This document shows positions 13,131 to 22,337 of a stretch of DNA of 43,538 bases, piece after piece. The stretch lies in NCBI GenBank assembly GCA_021296095.1, contig JAGWBB010000027.1, forward strand, positions 351-43,888, read 5' to 3'. The notes under the pieces are model-generated. The model saw only the letters and a list, made by a program, of their open reading frames with translations, made no database searches and had not been told where the DNA came from. How positions within the stretch are numbered: the stretch's first letter is position 1; each line of letters starts with the position of its first letter. Position numbers and translations under genes: made by a program. Source of the DNA: Desulfurellaceae bacterium (lineage in GTDB: Bacteria; Desulfobacterota; Binatia; Bin18).

Positions 13131-16100
13131 TCAGGCGCGTTGTTGCTCTTCGGGGCGCGGTTTGGGTTCGAGGCGGCGCAGCACCTGTTCAAGCTCGTAA
13201 ATCTCGAGGGCGTCTCCGGGCTGAATGTCTTTACAGCTCTCGAGCCCGACCCCACACTCGGTTCCGGCCGCGACCTCTCGGACATCGTCCTTGAAGCGCT
13301 TCAGGGTAGCGACTTTTCCCTCGTAGATGACTTTGTTATCGCGCCGAAGTCGGGCCTGGACGCCACGCTGGACGCGGCCCTCATTGATATAGCAGCCGGC
13401 GATCATGCCCAGGCGAGAGATTGAGAAGACCTGGCGAACCTCAGCCTGACCCAGCAGTTTTTCCTCGTAGACCGGTTCAAGCAAGCCTTCGAGGGCGGCG
13501 CGGATGTCTTCAATTAGCTCGTAGATGACATTGTACAGCCGGAGCTCAATGCCTTCCCGTTCGGCCATCTGGGCGGCTTTGCTCTCGGCGCGGACGTTGA
13601 AACCGATGATGACACCCCTGGAGGCGGTTGCCAGCAGAACGTCTGACTCGGTGATGCCGCCAGGCGAAGCGTGCAGGATGGAGACCTTGACTTCGTCGGT
13701 AGACAAACGGTTGAGGGCGTCGCTGATGGCTTCGATCGAGCCTTGTACGTCTCCCTTGATGATGACCCGGATGTCTTTCACCGCGCCGGCCTGGACCTGC
13801 TGGTGAAAGTCTTCGAGCGAGGTGCGGGTCGTATTTTTGGCCAACTCGGTCTCGCGGCGTTTGGAACGCCGATGGTCGGTGACTTGACGCGCTTTGGCCT
13901 CATCGTTGAGCACGACAAAAGAGTCGCCGGCTGCCGGCACCCCGGTCAATCCCAGAATCTCGACCGGCATGGACGACGACGCTTTTTCGACCTTGTGGCC
14001 CCAGCTGTCGAGCATGGCGCGAACCCGTCCGTGCTGGATGCCGCACACGAACGGGTCGCCGATTTTGAGTTCGCCCTCCTGGACGAGGACGGTGGCAACC
14101 GGGCCGCGGCCACGGTCGAGTTTGGCCTCGACGATGATGCCCCGGGCAAGTTTGTCGGGATGAGAACGCAGCTCCATGATATCTGCTTGGAGCAGAATCA
14201 GCTCCAGCAGTTCAGGAATGCCCTCCCCGGTCAGGGCCGACACCGGCGCCATGATGATATCGCCGCCAAGATCCTCGGCCAGCAGTCCATGATTCATCAG
14301 TCCACGTTTGACACGATCCGGATCGGCGCCGGGTTTGTCGATTTTATTGACCGCTACAATGATCGGCACGTCCGCCGCCCTGGCATGGTTAATCGCCTCG
14401 ACGGTCTGTGGCATCACGCCGTCGTCGGCGGCAACAATGAGGGTCACGATATCGGTGACCTCGGCCCCACGCGCCCGCATGGCGGTGAAGGCTTCGTGGC
14501 CCGGCGTGTCCAGAAAGGTCAGGCGACGGCCGTCCACCTCGACACTGTAGGCACCGATATGCTGGGTAATGCCACCGTGCTCGTGGGCGGTGACATTGGT
14601 CTGACGGATCGTATCGAGAAGAGACGTTTTGCCGTGATCGACATGACCCATGATGGTGACGACCGGCGGGCGGCCTGCGAGCTGGCCGTCGTCCTCAAGC
14701 GCCTCATGGCTGTCTTCCAGGACCGAATCGACGTTAAAGGCAACGTTCTCAATCGTATGCTCGAACTCACCGGCGATCAGGGCCGCGGTATCCATATCCA
14801 GGACTTGGTTGATGGTTGCCATCAGACCCAGGCCCATGAGCTTTTTAATGACCTCCCCGGCCTTGACACCCATCTGTTTGGATAAGTCGCCGACCGTAAT
14901 GACCTCGGAAATGCGGATCACGCGCTTACTGGCTCTGGGAACGGTGATCTCGGTCTGGCGTTGCTCTTTGCCGGGTTGGATGCGGCGCTTTTTGGCCGGG
15001 CCGCGGGCCTGGCGAACGTCGTGCTCGGGAGCATTCTGAAACTCGGGCTTGCGGATGACTTTCCGCTTTTTGCCTTTTTTGGGCAGGCTGGCGGGCAGCC
15101 CATCACCGCCGTTCCGTAGCGATTCACGAAAGGCGACCGGCTGGGGGGCGGACGAGGGGGCAGAAACCTTGACCTCCGGACGGCTGGGCTTGGCCTCTTG
15201 CAGCTTACCGAGATCGATACGGCCCAGGACCCGGGCCGAGCGGAGGCCGCTCGGCTGTTTCTGGCCAGCGTCGGCTGGACCTGCTGCCTGGGGCGGCGTG
15301 CCTGTCTCGGCCGACGGAGCGGGTTCGGGCGGCAAGGGGTCGTCGGCCGGGGAGCGGGCTGCAAGCGGTGTCACTTGGCCCGGCTCGGCTGGCTCGGCTT
15401 GTTCCGGGGGGCCGGGGGCGACCTCGGGGTGGGGCACTTTCCGCACCTCGATAGCTACCCCTGCATCCGGTATGTCGGCCGGCAGGTCTTCATCCGGCAG
15501 GTCTTGGGCAGGCGGAGGCTCTGCGGCGGACACGTCGACGGGCGGCTGAACGGCAGCCGGCGGCTCTTCCGAGACGGGCTCCGCTAGGCTGGGAGCGTCG
15601 GTGGACAACGCGTGTCGGGCTTCGGTCGCCAGGCCAGCCGGGACGGGCGGCTCGGGTGTGTCCTGGGGTAAAGCCGGAATCAGGGCTGGCGTTTCGCTTG
15701 GCTCCTGGGGCGCCGGAGGGAGGACGGCAGGTTGTTGCGGAAGAGGCGGCGGAACCGGGTCGGGCGAACCAAAAGCGATTGGTGGCGGTGCGCTGAAGGA
15801 CTCGTTGAGAGACGGGGCGGTGAAGACCGGCTCTGAGGGTGGAGCCGCTTCCTCATGGACCTCAACCCGTTTGGTCCGACGCCGGATGACGTTGGGCTTG
15901 ATGCGGCTCTCACGCACTTCCTCCCGGGCAGTCACGAGATGCTCATTTTGGTCAACCTCGGTCACCACGCGTTCTGCGACGAGTTTTTCCTCTCCCAGCA
16001 CGAAGTCTGGGGTCGGCTGCGGAGCATCTCCGGCACGGACCAAGGCGAACTCGTCGTCGGTCAGCGTGCTCTGGGGCTTTTTCCCCTGTACCCCCACAAG

Positions 16101-16175
16101 CTCAAGCTTGGCGATGAGCTGACGGGTCTCCAGCCCCAATTCCTTGGCCAATTCGTGGACGCGCTTTCGTGGCAT
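13131..16175 (-). CDS. infB: Translation initiation factor IF-2
   Basis: The 1014-residue protein has an N-terminal IF2_N module ([15 protein letters not shown]), then a long Pro/Glu/Ala-rich, probably disordered linker (about 90-330). A second IF2_N domain ([20 protein letters not shown]) follows, then the G domain from about residue 508 with [17 protein letters not shown] and NKIDKP, and domains II, III and the C-terminal fMet-tRNA-binding C2 domain. IF-2 brings fMet-tRNA to the 30S subunit and promotes subunit joining. It sits in the rimP-nusA-ylxR-infB operon, 19 nt after ylxR. The length is at the upper end for the family because of the linker. Confidence 0.97.
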
Positions 16176-16194: not shown

Positions 16195-16461
16195 TCACAG
16201 TGTCAGGCTGTTCTCAATCAGGCTGGCGTAGCGTTCTCGGACTTCTCGCGAAACCGTTGTCTTGAGCGAGCGGACAAAGCTTGCACGGGCCTTCCTAAAG
16301 GCATCCAGACACGCGCGACGCGGATGGAGATAGGCTCCTCGGCCGGGGCCGGGGCCGGGCTGCAAGAGTCCGTCTTGGCCCAGGGCAAAGCGGAACAGGC
16401 GTCCCTGCCGCTCACGCTGCCCACAGCCGACACAGCGACGTAGAGGCTTGGCCCGCTTCAT
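16195..16461 (-). CDS. ylxR: YlxR/RnpM family RNA-binding protein (DUF448)
   Basis: The 88-residue protein has the family's start RRCVGCGQR, then LFRF and [16 protein letters not shown], which form the nucleic-acid-binding surface of the YlxR fold. In Bacillus subtilis this protein was reported to bind and modulate RNase P (renamed RnpM). The start overlaps the nusA stop by 4 nt (ATGA), indicating coupling, and infB follows after 19 nt. Confidence 0.92.
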
Positions 16462-17834
16462 ACTTCTTCCGATGCCGCCTGTGCACCGTCTACCCCGGTG
16501 GCGGCTTGGCCCACGAGGGCTGACTGGGGGCTGCCCGTCTGCCCCGCTGGCCCGTCTGGCGTGTCGACCGGTTCCTGAGGGTCGGCTTCTGCTGCGGCCT
16601 GCTCGTCGACATAGTCCTGGGCGGCCTGGAGGATGGCTTGGGCCTTATCCGCTTCTATGCCCTCCAGTTCGGCCAGGGTGGCCTCATCGGCTTCAGCCAC
16701 GTCGGCGGCCGATTTATAGCCCTGTTGGTATAAGAGTTCTGCGGTCAGATCGCCAATGCCCGTCATGCCGGTCAACGACTCCAGCGCGCGCGTGCGTTCC
16801 AGCTCGATCTCGGATTCTGAGCGGACATCGAGCCGCCAGGCTGTCAAACGAGAAGCCAGACGGACGTTCTGGCCTTTTTTGCCAATGGCCAAGGACAGCT
16901 GATCGTCGGGAACGATGATTTCCATCGCGTGGTCATCTTCGTCGAGAATAATCTTGGACACCTTGGCTGGCAAGATGGCTCGGCAGACGTACTCGGCCGG
17001 ATCGGGTGTCCAGGGTACGATATCGACCCGTTCGCCACGGAGTTCCTGCACGACGGCCTGGACTCGGGTGCCCTTCATGCCCACGCAGGCACCAACCGGG
17101 TCGACATCCGGGTCGGTGGAATGGACGGCAATCTTGGCCCGGCTGCCCGGCTCACGGGCCGCCCCTTTGATTTCAATAATCCCTTCGTAGACCTCGGGCG
17201 CTTCCTGCTCAAAGAGTTTGATCAGGAAACCGGGATGGGTGCGAGACAGGACAATCTGGGGACCTTTATGGGACATCTCGACATCCAGCACAAAGGCGCG
17301 AATGCGGTCTCCCTGCCGATACCGTTCCCAGGGAATCTGTTCTTTTTCGGGCAGGACAGCGTCGGTACGGCCGAGGTTGACGATAATGTTCTTGCGCTCG
17401 ATACGCTGCACGATGCCGGAGAAGATTTCGCCTTTGCGATCCCGAAATTCGTTGTAGATCAGCTCGCGCTCGGCTTCCCGTACCTTCTGAATCACGCTTT
17501 GCTTGGCCACCTGGGCGGCGATCCGGCCGAACGAGGTGGCCGGCAACTTACTGAGCAACTCATCGCCCTCCTGGGCTTCGGGATCCATATTGGCCCGGGC
17601 GTCGGCAAGCGTGATCTCGGTTTCCGGGTCGGTCACGGTCTGCACCACGGTCTTGATTTCAAACAGTTCCACCTCACCGATCTCGTGATTGAATTTGGCC
17701 TCGATCTGTTTCTGACCAAAGGTGCGTCTGGCGGCGGACAGCATGGCGCTCTCAATGGCTTCAATGATGACCTGACGATCCATGCCTTTTTCTTTGCTGA
17801 CCTGTTCGATCACCCGATTGAGATCTGGCTGCAT
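16458..17834 (-). CDS. nusA: Transcription termination/antitermination factor NusA
   Basis: The 458-residue protein has the N-terminal RNA polymerase-binding domain (1-130), an S1 domain from about 135 (GEIFSGIVQRIERKN), KH1 around 240 (VGACVGMKGTR) and KH2 around 315-330 (AIGKKGQNVRLA). A C-terminal helix-hairpin-helix segment follows (TGIGDLTAELLYQQGY, about 350-370) and then an acidic tail. NusA stimulates pausing and intrinsic termination and supports antitermination. It lies 14 nt after rimP. The intrinsic terminator before rimP would be a natural NusA-responsive autoregulatory site. Confidence 0.97.
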   Translation of the reverse strand: MQPDLNRVIEQVSKEKGMDRQVIIEAIESAMLSAARRTFGQKQIEAKFNHEIGEVELFEIKTVVQTVTDPETEITLADARANMDPEAQEGDELLSKLPATSFGRIAAQVAKQSVIQKVREAERELIYNEFRDRKGEIFSGIVQRIERKNIIVNLGRTDAVLPEKEQIPWERYRQGDRIRAFVLDVEMSHKGPQIVLSRTHPGFLIKLFEQEAPEVYEGIIEIKGAAREPGSRAKIAVHSTDPDVDPVGACVGMKGTRVQAVVQELRGERVDIVPWTPDPAEYVCRAILPAKVSKIILDEDDHAMEIIVPDDQLSLAIGKKGQNVRLASRLTAWRLDVRSESEIELERTRALESLTGMTGIGDLTAELLYQQGYKSAADVAEADEATLAELEGIEADKAQAILQAAQDYVDEQAAAEADPQEPVDTPDGPAGQTGSPQSALVGQAATGVDGAQAASEEV

Positions 17835-17848
17835 GAGTCGTGTTCTCC

Positions 17849-18370
17849 CTAGTGGGCCGTTTTCCGTCGTCCCACGTGTTTTTTCTTCTGGCCGCCGACC
17901 GGAAACTCATAATCGACATGCGCTCTGGCTATCGCCTGCCAGGGAATATGCACTAGGCCAAGCTCTCCGTCCTCAATACTGACCTGACGCTCATCCGTTT
18001 CTCTCAGCGGACCGCTAAACGTCCGCTGGCCGTGCCTGACGCTTGTTGTCTGGAGACGAATTCGCTGGCCGAGATAGCGGGTGTAGTGACTCGGGCGGAG
18101 CAGCGGGCGGTTAATGCCAGGCGAAGACACCTCAAGCGTATAGCGTCGGGGTATGAGGTCATGGGCGTCGAGCACGTCGCTCAGTTCCCGGTGGATCTGC
18201 GTCAAATCGTCAAGCGGAACGCCGTCTTGTCGATCAAGCGTGATGCGGAGTATCCACTGTCTGGCTTCTGATCGAAAGACAACCTCCCAGATTTCACAGC
18301 CCGTCGCTTCTACCACCTCGGCCGCGATGCGCTCGACTTGCCGGACAATGTCTCGGTCTCCAGACTGCAT
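17849..18370 (-). CDS. rimP: Ribosome maturation factor RimP
   Basis: From ATG 18370 the protein has 173 residues and the RimP pattern: IVRQVERIAAEVVEATGCEIWEVVF, LRITLDRQDGVPLDDL, and SSPGINRPL followed by the C-terminal SH3-like domain. RimP binds the 30S subunit and assists its assembly. A GTG at 18391 would add seven residues (PTFFLE plus start), but these are encoded by the terminator hairpin and its U-tract and do not match the family N-terminus. The ATG has GGAG immediately against it, too close to serve as a normal SD, so initiation here is unusual. It is the first gene of the nusA-infB operon. Confidence 0.93.
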   Translation of the reverse strand: MQSGDRDIVRQVERIAAEVVEATGCEIWEVVFRSEARQWILRITLDRQDGVPLDDLTQIHRELSDVLDAHDLIPRRYTLEVSSPGINRPLLRPSHYTRYLGQRIRLQTTSVRHGQRTFSGPLRETDERQVSIEDGELGLVHIPWQAIARAHVDYEFPVGGQKKKHVGRRKTAH

Positions 18371-18374
18371 CTCC

Positions 18375-18402
18375 AAAAAAAAAGTGGGCACCAGCCCACT
18401 TT
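18375..18402 (-). terminator. Intrinsic terminator directly before rimP: probable attenuator
   Basis: On the minus strand AGTGGGC (18400-18394) pairs with GCCCACT (18389-18383) around a TGGT loop. The stem can extend by two A-T pairs, and eight T follow (18382-18375). GGAG and the rimP ATG (18370) come next, so the U-tract is 4 nt from the start codon. It can end readthrough from greA and, because a promoter-like sequence lies about 20-50 nt upstream, it can also attenuate the rimP-nusA-infB operon. The folded hairpin would also cover the ribosome landing site. Confidence 0.85.
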
Positions 18403-18421
18403 CCCTCTTACCCCTGCCCGC

Positions 18422-18450
18422 ACACTAGACGATCTGCGGCGGTTGTGCAA
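18422..18450 (-). promoter_or_regulatory. Candidate promoter of the rimP-nusA-infB operon
   Basis: On the minus strand TTGCAC (18450-18445) and TAGTGT (18427-18422) are 17 bp apart. Transcription would begin near 18415, about 15 nt before the terminator hairpin. The hexamers match the consensus only partly (3/6 each), so confidence rests mainly on position and spacing. Confidence 0.4.
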
Positions 18451-18463
18451 GAGCCGCAGATCG
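18430..18463. repeat. 11-bp perfect inverted repeat in the greA-rimP gap
   Basis: CGATCTGCGGC (18430-18440) and its exact complement (18453-18463) flank a 12-nt loop. No T-tract follows on either strand. The repeat overlaps the spacer and -35 of the candidate rimP promoter, so it could be an operator, a 3'-end stabilising hairpin of the greA mRNA, or a remnant terminator. Confidence 0.6.
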
Positions 18464-18488
18464 CAAAATTCGTTCTCATAGACGCTCT

Positions 18489-18974
18489 TCAGCTGTTCAG
18501 ATCGTTGTTTCTCTCGTGCAGGGTAGTCAGCTCGATGATTTCGTAGATCCGTTTGCCCTGAGGGGTCAACACCTCGGCCTCGTCGTCAACCGATTTATGC
18601 AGCAGCGCTTGGCCAATCGGTGAGTGGAGGGAGATCTTGCCGCTGGCAGGATCGACTTCCTCTGGAAAGACGATGCGGTACTCGACAATCTCTCCGCTGT
18701 CGATGTCTTCGAGTTTGACTTGGCTCCCATACGCGACCACATCTTTGGGAATGCTCGATAAGTCGTACAGGGACAACTGGCTTATCCGCTCTTCATGTTG
18801 AGCAATGCGCGCCCGGACAAAGTCCTGGCGCGCCCGGGCGGCCTCATACTCGGCATTCTCACTCAGATCACCATGGGCGGCCGCCTCCTGGAGATCTTTT
18901 GGAATCTTCACGTTCAGCTCGTGGTAGAGTTCTTCGAGCTCTTGTCTGAGCCGTTTTGTAATAGGCAGTTCCAT
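18489..18974 (-). CDS. greA: Transcription elongation factor GreA
   Basis: The 161-residue protein has the N-terminal coiled coil (LRQELEELYHEL, then AAAHGDLSENAEYEAARARQ with the acidic tip DLSENAEY) and the C-terminal FKBP-like globular domain ending with SPIGQALLHKSVDDEAEV. GreA inserts its coiled coil into the RNA polymerase secondary channel and stimulates transcript cleavage in backtracked complexes. ATG 18974 has AGGAG 9 nt upstream; the frame is open further to 19295 but without homology. It sits just upstream of the rimP-nusA operon, so three RNA-polymerase or ribosome factors are clustered. Confidence 0.95.
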   Translation of the reverse strand: MELPITKRLRQELEELYHELNVKIPKDLQEAAAHGDLSENAEYEAARARQDFVRARIAQHEERISQLSLYDLSSIPKDVVAYGSQVKLEDIDSGEIVEYRIVFPEEVDPASGKISLHSPIGQALLHKSVDDEAEVLTPQGKRIYEIIELTTLHERNNDLNS

Positions 18975-20268: not shown

Positions 20269-20730
20269 TCAATTCTGGCTGGGCTTGAAGAAAAAAGCAA
20301 TGATATCAATAGTTTCTTCTCCGCCCTGGGCATTTTTCTCTTTGCGTTCGCGGACTTTTCGGGTCACCATTTCAACCGGCATGCCAAACTGGAGCTTGGC
20401 CGGGTCGGGCTCAACATCGACCAGATTGCAGCGCACGCTGACTCCCTCGGGCAGGTCAACAATGGCCGATACATACGGCACCGGCACGCCGGGGACCGAC
20501 TGGTGGACGATGGAGTAGACATACAGGGTGCCGTGGTCGCTGAGTGCGACCTCGCTGAGCGGGTCGGTGGCCGTACATTTACTACAGCCCACCCGACCGG
20601 CCCCGATGAAGTGGGCGCCGCACGCGGTGCAGCGGTAGCCGACCAGATAGGGTTTTGTATCGGGGGAGGTCGGCAAGCGCAGCATGGGGGCGATTGCCCG
20701 TTGTGTATTGTCTGTTGCTTCTGCCGCCAT
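20269..20730 (-). CDS. Zn-ribbon / OB-fold protein (DUF35), thiolase partner
   Basis: The 153-residue protein has a rubredoxin-like zinc ribbon (CTACG, then GCSKC) at about residues 35-52 and a C-terminal OB-fold with a PYVSAIVDLPEGV strand. This is the DUF35 layout (PF12172 plus PF01796). Such proteins bind acyl-CoA and form complexes with thiolases, HMG-CoA synthases or Ltp aldolases. ATG 20730 has AAGGAGA 8 nt upstream; the frame extends to 20811 without support. It is the first gene of a two-gene operon with the thiolase and is divergent from comF. Confidence 0.88.
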   Translation of the reverse strand: MAAEATDNTQRAIAPMLRLPTSPDTKPYLVGYRCTACGAHFIGAGRVGCSKCTATDPLSEVALSDHGTLYVYSIVHQSVPGVPVPYVSAIVDLPEGVSVRCNLVDVEPDPAKLQFGMPVEMVTRKVRERKEKNAQGGEETIDIIAFFFKPSQN

Positions 20731-20893
20731 AACCAGATCTCCTTCCGTGAGCCTGTGGTGTGTCTCCAAACTTTCGCCGCCACCAATACCTGAGCACAGC
20801 CCCGAAAACAAGCCCTCAGCCTGAGTTCAGCCGGGGAGGGAGAGCGGGTCCGAGCCTTGCTTGTCCGGCCGCAGGCGGTATACAAGCCCCTGC

Positions 20894-21640
20894 ATGAGAG
20901 CCCGCGACATAGTGCGCTCCATCAGGCGTGTGGCCGTCTCCTTTCTCTACCCCCACCGTTGTCTCGGGTGTGAGGTGCTGCTTGATGACGGGCGGTTTTT
21001 CTGTCCGGCGTGTTCCAGGGCGGTCGAGCCGATCATTGCGCCGTTCTGTCAACGCTGCGGCCTGCCGTTTGGCGCAGGTTCGCTGCCCGTGTGTAGCCGC
21101 TGTTTTCGGCGCCAACCCGCCTTTCGCCAGGCGCGGGCGTGGGCCTATTACGACAGCCCGGGAAAAAGCATCCAGCCGCTCAGTGCGGCGATTCAGCGCT
21201 GTAAATATCAACGCCGGCTGGATAATGGCGCGGCCTTGGCCGAGCTGGCGGCCGAGCACTGCAGGCTGGCCGCCGGGGGCTATGACTGGATTCTGCCCGT
21301 TCCGCTGCACATCGACCGTTTGCGCTGGCGGGGTTTCAACCAGTCCCTCCTGCTGGCCCGGGCGATTGGCGAGCGACACAAGATTTGGGTTGAGCCGTTT
21401 GTGCTCCAGCGCATCAGGCCGACCCTGCCCCAGACCCAGCTCACCCAACCCCGGCGCCGGGCCAATGTGCGGGGCGCGTTTGCCGTGTCCGACCCGGAAG
21501 GTCTGCGCGGCAAACACCTGCTGCTGGTTGACGACGTGTATACCTCGGGTGCCACGGTTGAGGAGTGCGCTCGGACGCTGTATCAGGGGGGAGCACGGAC
21601 CGTCGATGTCTTTACCCTGACACGGGCGGTTGTGCGTTAG
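20894..21640 (+). CDS. comF: ComF family phosphoribosyltransferase-like protein
   Basis: The protein (248 residues from ATG 20894; 259 if TTG 20861 is used) has two CxxC pairs (CLGC, CPAC) and then CQRC and CSRC in its N-terminal zinc-binding region. A phosphoribosyltransferase domain follows with the PRPP motif LLVDDVYTSGAT (about 215-226 of the longer form). ComF homologues support DNA uptake in competent bacteria, but many carriers are not known to be competent and the enzyme activity is unproven. Neither start has a good SD. It is 16 nt before purN. Confidence 0.88.
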   Translation: MRARDIVRSIRRVAVSFLYPHRCLGCEVLLDDGRFFCPACSRAVEPIIAPFCQRCGLPFGAGSLPVCSRCFRRQPAFRQARAWAYYDSPGKSIQPLSAAIQRCKYQRRLDNGAALAELAAEHCRLAAGGYDWILPVPLHIDRLRWRGFNQSLLLARAIGERHKIWVEPFVLQRIRPTLPQTQLTQPRRRANVRGAFAVSDPEGLRGKHLLLVDDVYTSGATVEECARTLYQGGARTVDVFTLTRAVVR

Positions 21641-21656
21641 CGTGGAGCAGAATGAT

Positions 21657-22337
21657 ATGCGGGCCGGACAGAATCCTCTGCCGCTGGGCGTGCTCATTTC
21701 AGGTGGAGGCACGAATCTGCAAGCGATTATCGACGCGATTGCGGACGGCCAGCTGCCGGCCGAGATTCGGCTGGTGGTGAGCAACCGCCACGACGCCTAC
21801 GGCCTCAGCCGGGCCGAGCGGCACGGCATACCGAGCGCGGTGTTGCCGCATCGCGGCTACCCGTCACGTCGGGCGTTTGAGGCTGCGCTGATAAGCACCC
21901 TGCGCGAGCGGGGGGTTAATCTGGTCGTGCTGGCCGGTTTCATGCGATTGCTGTCACCCTTTTTCATTCGCGCTTTTCCTCAACGCATCGTGAACATTCA
22001 TCCCGGCCTTCTGCCGGCCTTTCCCGGGCTGCACGCCCAGCGCCAGGCCCTCGAACGTGGAGTCCGGATTGCCGGAGCCACCGTCCATTTTGTGGATGAA
22101 GAGATGGACCATGGCCCGATTATCTGCCAGGCTGCGGTGCCGGTGTATCCTGACGATACGGAGGACAGCCTGAGCGCGCGCATTCTGACCCAGGAACACC
22201 GGATCTATCCGCATGCGATTCGGCTGTTTGCCGAAGGCCGCCTGGAAGTTCGGGGTCGTTCCGTTGTGGTCCGTGACGAAGTGTGCCTCTCGGACGGGTT
22301 GTTGGCGGTTCCTGAGCCGAAAGGCGAACGAGGATGA
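21657..22337 (+). CDS. purN: Phosphoribosylglycinamide formyltransferase
   Basis: The 226-residue protein has the PurN pattern: SGGGTNLQAIIDA at the N-terminus, then VLAGFMRLL, NIHPGLLPAFPG with the catalytic Asn/His, and DEEMDHGPII with the catalytic Asp. It transfers a formyl group from 10-formyl-THF to GAR in purine synthesis. ATG 21657 is preceded by GGAG at 9 nt; GTG 21642 is an alternative. Its last codons overlap the start of rnhC by 4 nt (ATGA). Confidence 0.95.
   Translation: MRAGQNPLPLGVLISGGGTNLQAIIDAIADGQLPAEIRLVVSNRHDAYGLSRAERHGIPSAVLPHRGYPSRRAFEAALISTLRERGVNLVVLAGFMRLLSPFFIRAFPQRIVNIHPGLLPAFPGLHAQRQALERGVRIAGATVHFVDEEMDHGPIICQAAVPVYPDDTEDSLSARILTQEHRIYPHAIRLFAEGRLEVRGRSVVVRDEVCLSDGLLAVPEPKGERG

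Follow-up and report, generated by a model that had tools for sequence, protein, structure and literature searches.

The window analyzed here, a stretch of 43,538 nucleotides, originates from Candidatus Binatota, and its RimP is 98% identical to that of the Candidatus Binatota MAG WTHE01000010.1. On the minus strand, the genes run in the order greA, a 118-nt gap, rimP, nusA and infB. The first of these, greA (18489..18974, assigned by domain match), is the gene found upstream of rimP in the window's own family. rimP (17849..18370) encodes 173 aa with PF02576 and PF17384 and begins with the ATG at 18370-18368, as read from the sequence. It is followed by nusA (16458..17834; 458 aa with NusA_N, S1, KH_5 and HHH_5) and by infB (13131..16175), which encodes IF-2 by domain match. 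Elsewhere on the minus strand, at 20364-21784, two ORFs (20816-21784 and 20364-20885) show no Pfam match.

Directly ahead of rimP, the minus strand carries a terminator-like hairpin, 5'-AAAGUGGGC-UGGU-GCCCACUUU followed by UUUUUU, which was read from the sequence at 18402-18375. The stem is composed of a 5' arm, AAAGTGGGC (18394..18402), with the core GTGGGC, and a 3' arm, GCCCACTTT (18381..18389), the pairs of which are backed by compensatory changes. Between the arms lies the loop TGGT (18390..18393), which varies in sequence among relatives. The U-tract consists of nine T (18375..18383), with three at its start that are able to join the stem and six beyond it (18380-18375), and GGAG (18374-18371) fills the 4-nt gap between this tract and the rimP ATG. 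An earlier sequence-only reading of this DNA had described the hairpin and the 4-nt gap, both of which were read directly here, yet its T-run of eight has to be corrected to nine. When folded, the 41 nt from the expected transcription start to the end of the U-tract (18415-18375) reach -19.3 kcal/mol (z = -4.5), as compared with -9.6 ± 2.1 kcal/mol for shuffled versions, 0 of 200 of which were as good. The pattern GTGGGC-N3-6-GCCCRC-T6 matches the window once, with 0 matches expected from shuffles. It should be noted that a generic promoter and terminator scan of the window listed neither the hairpin nor the promoter described below, as its terminator rule missed the hairpin site. Nonetheless, as both elements are conserved class-wide, chance can be ruled out for them.

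The promoter elements, also on the minus strand, comprise a -35-like TTGCAC (18445..18450), read directly and with its TTG invariant in 53 of 53 aligned relatives, and, after a 17-nt spacer, a -10-like TAGTGT (18422..18427). The expected transcription start would lie near A18415 (18415..18415, minus strand), 7 nt after the -10, about 13 nt ahead of the A-U-extended stem and 16 nt ahead of the GC core. By consensus alone, this promoter is weak, as the -10 matches at only 3 of 6 positions and as the generic scan omits it. In most of the 53 aligned sequences, a TA is found 17-18 nt after the -35 hexamer, while the -10 in other families reads TATAAA (f3), TAAAAA or TAGAAA (f16) or TAGAAA (f6) and is mostly preceded by an extended TGn. 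The claim that a -35/-10 pair lies just upstream of the hairpin is thus backed by TTG and TA elements conserved in relatives, a matter of sequence conservation, and these data support a real promoter at the corresponding site, though how strong it is in the family of the window is uncertain. A 12-bp hairpin was also noted around the -35 region (18429-18464, minus strand), with TTGCAC in its loop. It was set aside, as some of its pairs are lost in the sister genome G001 and it is not conserved.

To describe conservation across the class, 148 of its genomes were searched for RimP, which was found in 139, and 110 upstream regions were read. A terminator-like hairpin is present upstream of rimP in 108 of the 110 fetched sequences, and a fully paired 6-bp core with a T-rich tail in 107, covering 15 of the 17 class families (all but f11 and f14), and the 5' arm reads GTGGGC in 95 of these 107; conservation of the hairpin in relatives, a check proposed by the earlier reading, is thereby confirmed. 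The core was unscored in three sequences, namely L030, where a masked run of N falls within the stem, L094, where the contig ends, and L099, whose stem is divergent. The hairpin is still kept where RimP identity is merely 32-58%, that is, outside the genus, and exactly nine T are found in all 15 members of the window's own family. GTGGGC..GCCCAC hairpins are likewise found upstream of rimP in L020 (a 'bacterium' MAG) and L021 (an 'Actinomycetes bacterium' MAG), the latter without a T-run.

The covariation set comprised 88 distinct sequences, in which 94.9% of cells are paired at the true register, as opposed to 34-61% in slid controls. Twenty-five cells, across six pairs, are changed on both sides, where shuffling gave a mean of 6.2 and 0 of 500 shuffles were as high. 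Such compensatory changes support the view that the stem would act as RNA. Within the 5' arm GUGGGC, the U is retained in 84 of the 88 sequences, whereas the base opposite it is A in 44 of the distinct sequences and G in 40. This asymmetry, by which the 5' arm is held more strictly than pairing needs, hints that the arm may be read as sequence by some factor.

The pattern GTGGGC-N3-6-GCCCRC-T6 occurs in 97 of 145 genomes, with 99 listed matches. The match places were compared with RimP coordinates partly via fetched regions and partly by hand, and every compared match lies upstream of rimP. The opposite strand of the same palindrome matched as well in G011, and only the opposite strand did so in G079. 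What appeared to be a second motif copy in G053 was rejected, as it is a near-identical variant of the same rimP locus on another contig; this MAG holds two near-identical rimP leaders (L118 and L121, at G053:C25 and C80), probably strain variants. With a covariance model of the hairpin, rimP was the top match in all 15 family genomes having rimP, at 37-43 bits, and other loci in the same search of these 15 genomes scored about 31 bits or less. The possibility of a regulon sharing the motif was likewise rejected, considering these low scores of the secondary matches and their differing sequences. With one locus per genome and rimP as the top match, the hairpin is therefore not a stock terminator of these genomes. 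Within genus g2 (L139-L144), a further terminator-like hairpin, GGTGGGTCCG..GGACCCACC followed by T8, is conserved at another locus, around position 1501.

As for the neighbors, nusA immediately follows rimP in 33 of 34 loci, the other being a contig that ends inside rimP, while greA lies upstream of rimP in all 15 family loci and, within the flanking sequence covered, in only 7 of the 19 outside-family loci, although these counts are not all independent, as some loci come from two collections (e.g., L018/L028 and L019/L033). Judged by gene neighborhood, the hairpin travels with rimP-nusA and not with greA. The supposition that the leader is independent of greA is borne out by the families in which greA was not found upstream, where hairpin and promoter are still there.

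Taken as a whole, the leader is probably an attenuator of the rimP-leader type, with a transcription start at about 18415, partial termination and NusA raising the stopped fraction. A sigma-70-type promoter would start the RNA near 18415, and the polymerase would at once make the GC-rich hairpin and then U9. Some polymerases would stop there and release a short RNA (about 41 nt), whereas the others would continue into rimP-nusA-infB; NusA translated from this longer mRNA would then most likely raise the stopped fraction, limiting its own operon. The start site, the termination, its partial extent and NusA as the sensor are what we infer in this scheme. As so short a leader could hold neither a leader peptide nor a riboswitch, a factor acting on the polymerase and the hairpin is favored, and NusA autoregulation appears to us the best mechanism. 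Several points weigh against this model: the -10 is weak in the window's own family, the action of NusA is deduced from other phyla, and U9 behind a strong stem could lead to nearly complete termination. An antiterminator was sought by eye in the alignments, which, from the expected start up to the stem, show no stretch conserved from family to family. In f16 (L048-L101), a conserved TACACTTTAGGnGTT..CACTC lies near the expected transcript start, and its CACUUU could pair with the stem AAAGUG; at about the same place, f3, f5, f6, f7 and f13 have a GGCCG element. On this view by eye, antitermination was set aside as a general mechanism, as the CACUUU/AAAGUG pairing is not common to the families.

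Other explanations of the hairpin need to be considered. It might merely be the intrinsic terminator of greA, or a general upstream terminator, insulating rimP. Indeed, greA and rimP flank it in the window and its family, it is the sole hairpin with a T-run seen in that gap, and it would stop greA read-through as well. However, hairpin and promoter occur together upstream of rimP in families where greA was not found upstream, the promoter elements precede the hairpin, which any rimP transcript starting there would have to traverse, and conservation of the stem extends to its sequence, beyond mere stability. We thus regard this explanation as very unlikely. Even less credible, to the point of being nearly dismissed, is that the palindrome serves as a DNA operator rather than as an RNA element. 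A 22-bp near-palindrome directly downstream of promoter elements would be in place for such a role, yet G-U pairs occur in about half of the sequences, the compensatory changes are of the RNA type, and the strictly one-sided T-tract misfits a symmetric DNA site.

A closer variant retains attenuation but replaces NusA by another sensor, such as RimP, NusG, or the polymerase speed or UTP supply at the U-tract. From conservation alone, RimP or general polymerase factors, e.g., NusG, would be candidates as well. The 5' arm GUGGGC, stricter than pairing needs, suggests sequence recognition by some factor, and RimP is named as a possible alternative regulator of the rimP-leader by Naville & Gautheret (2010, PMC2965389). 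On the other hand, NusA in B. subtilis is autoregulated by NusA-stimulated termination in the leader, according to a 2025 review (PMC12288461, which refers to Mondal et al. 2016), and PMC2965389 cites that NusA represses its own operon in E. coli. The B. subtilis precedent invoked by the sequence-only reading is thus stated in the literature, and a like mechanism is proposed for the rimP-leader itself in PMC2965389. A sensor other than NusA is accordingly judged unlikely.

Translation of rimP was considered by scoring SD sequences against a standard anti-SD, from which the host's own 16S end may differ. On this basis, no SD is part of the window's hairpin, nor is the rimP AUG. Among the 15 family members that have the hairpin, none shows a well-spaced SD between it and the AUG, the GGAG of the window having zero spacing, while purine-rich SD-like RNA is found upstream of the hairpin in 14 of the 15, the exception being G015, which represents one genus. 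The proposal that the hairpin would block ribosome landing therefore finds no support. The mean strength of the upstream SD-like RNA is -9.7 kcal/mol in the window's family, with other families averaging -1.3 to -8.5, and in families such as f3, f6, f7, f15 and f16 the U-tract is often followed at once by GGAGG, GAGG or GGGG. A reading compatible with attenuation is that, in the window's family, the hairpin brings the upstream purine-rich SD nearer to the AUG and so aids RimP translation. The placement of SD-like RNA ahead of the stem in the family, and directly behind the U-tract in several other families, speaks for it. However, the bridged spacing of 12-22 nt exceeds the usual optimum, one genus (G015) lacks the upstream SD, the upstream values of f7, f10 and f12 are fairly strong too, 7 of the 15 sequences come from one genus, and S1 could bring ribosomes to the U-rich stretch with no SD needed. 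We thus consider this role conceivable but rather doubtful. The idea that RNA slippage on U9 might fuse an upstream start with rimP was rejected by eye, as the frame offset differs between genera and as L005 and L006 carry a stop in that frame.

Returning to the attenuator that we prefer, its leader varies in length across the class. In most families, 20-36 nt separate the -10 from the stem, but in f2 this spacing falls to 5-13 nt and in f15 to 9-11 nt; it should be noted that a few distance rows were scored at other sites, the homologous site being taken from family alignments. Short -10-to-stem loci upstream of rimP in f2 and f15 are L103, L111, L115, L053 and L055. If the start is taken 6-8 nt after the -10, the stem in these two families would begin at about +1 to +6, and the terminated RNA is expected to be about 22-30 nt long. 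As the hairpin would then stand at the 5' end of the transcript, with no room for another leader element, a factor acting on polymerase and hairpin is again favored. We tentatively suggest, more as a possibility than as an expectation, that the Binatota element is a minimal attenuator consisting of a promoter and a terminator (as in the 22-30-nt RNAs of f2 and f15), with regulation resting on the polymerase, the hairpin and the GUGGGC arm alone, and that the hairpin of the window's family also positions the ribosome. Such compact leaders make sequence-reading of the hairpin by NusA testable on short synthetic templates.

The rimP-leader of Naville & Gautheret is described in PMC2965389 as a terminator of the form GGGc(...)gCCC that ends in a U-run and is located 4-130 nt ahead of the start codon. 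The paper also states that the motif is absent from other terminators, that no antiterminator is visible and that NusA is the likely regulator, and the section consulted leaves Binatota unmentioned. In the window, too, the hairpin lies in the 5' leader of rimP-nusA-infB, GTGGGC..GCCCAC with T9 fits GGGc(...)gCCC and its T-stretch, as it does class-wide, the 4-nt gap between hairpin and start is within the 4-130 nt range, and the motif is confined to one locus per Binatota genome. The differences are that the Binatota core is extended to GUGGGC/GCCC(A/G)C and that the leader is very short, its U-tract ending at about 41 nt (about 22-30 nt expected in the sister families f2 and f15), as compared with the 180-nt B. 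subtilis leader. The rimP leader of E. coli has the same core, CTGGGCTTTAGGCCCTTTTTTT (TGGGC-TTTA-GGCCC-T7). Rfam RF01770 (rimP), for which E. coli gave the only match among 14 control genomes, shares the gene position, whereas the window is without the tandem CCCG...CGGG terminator, and the RF01770 covariance model at its gathering score had no match in this genome. What the window has in common with the NusA-autoregulated attenuator of B. subtilis is that the 5' leader of its nusA operon holds a putative intrinsic terminator. Considering these similarities and differences in sequence, the element is very likely a new, compact Binatota member of the known rimP-leader attenuators, which extends the rimP-leader to a little-studied lineage, with evidence from more than 100 genomes and with one stem sequence held at one place per genome.
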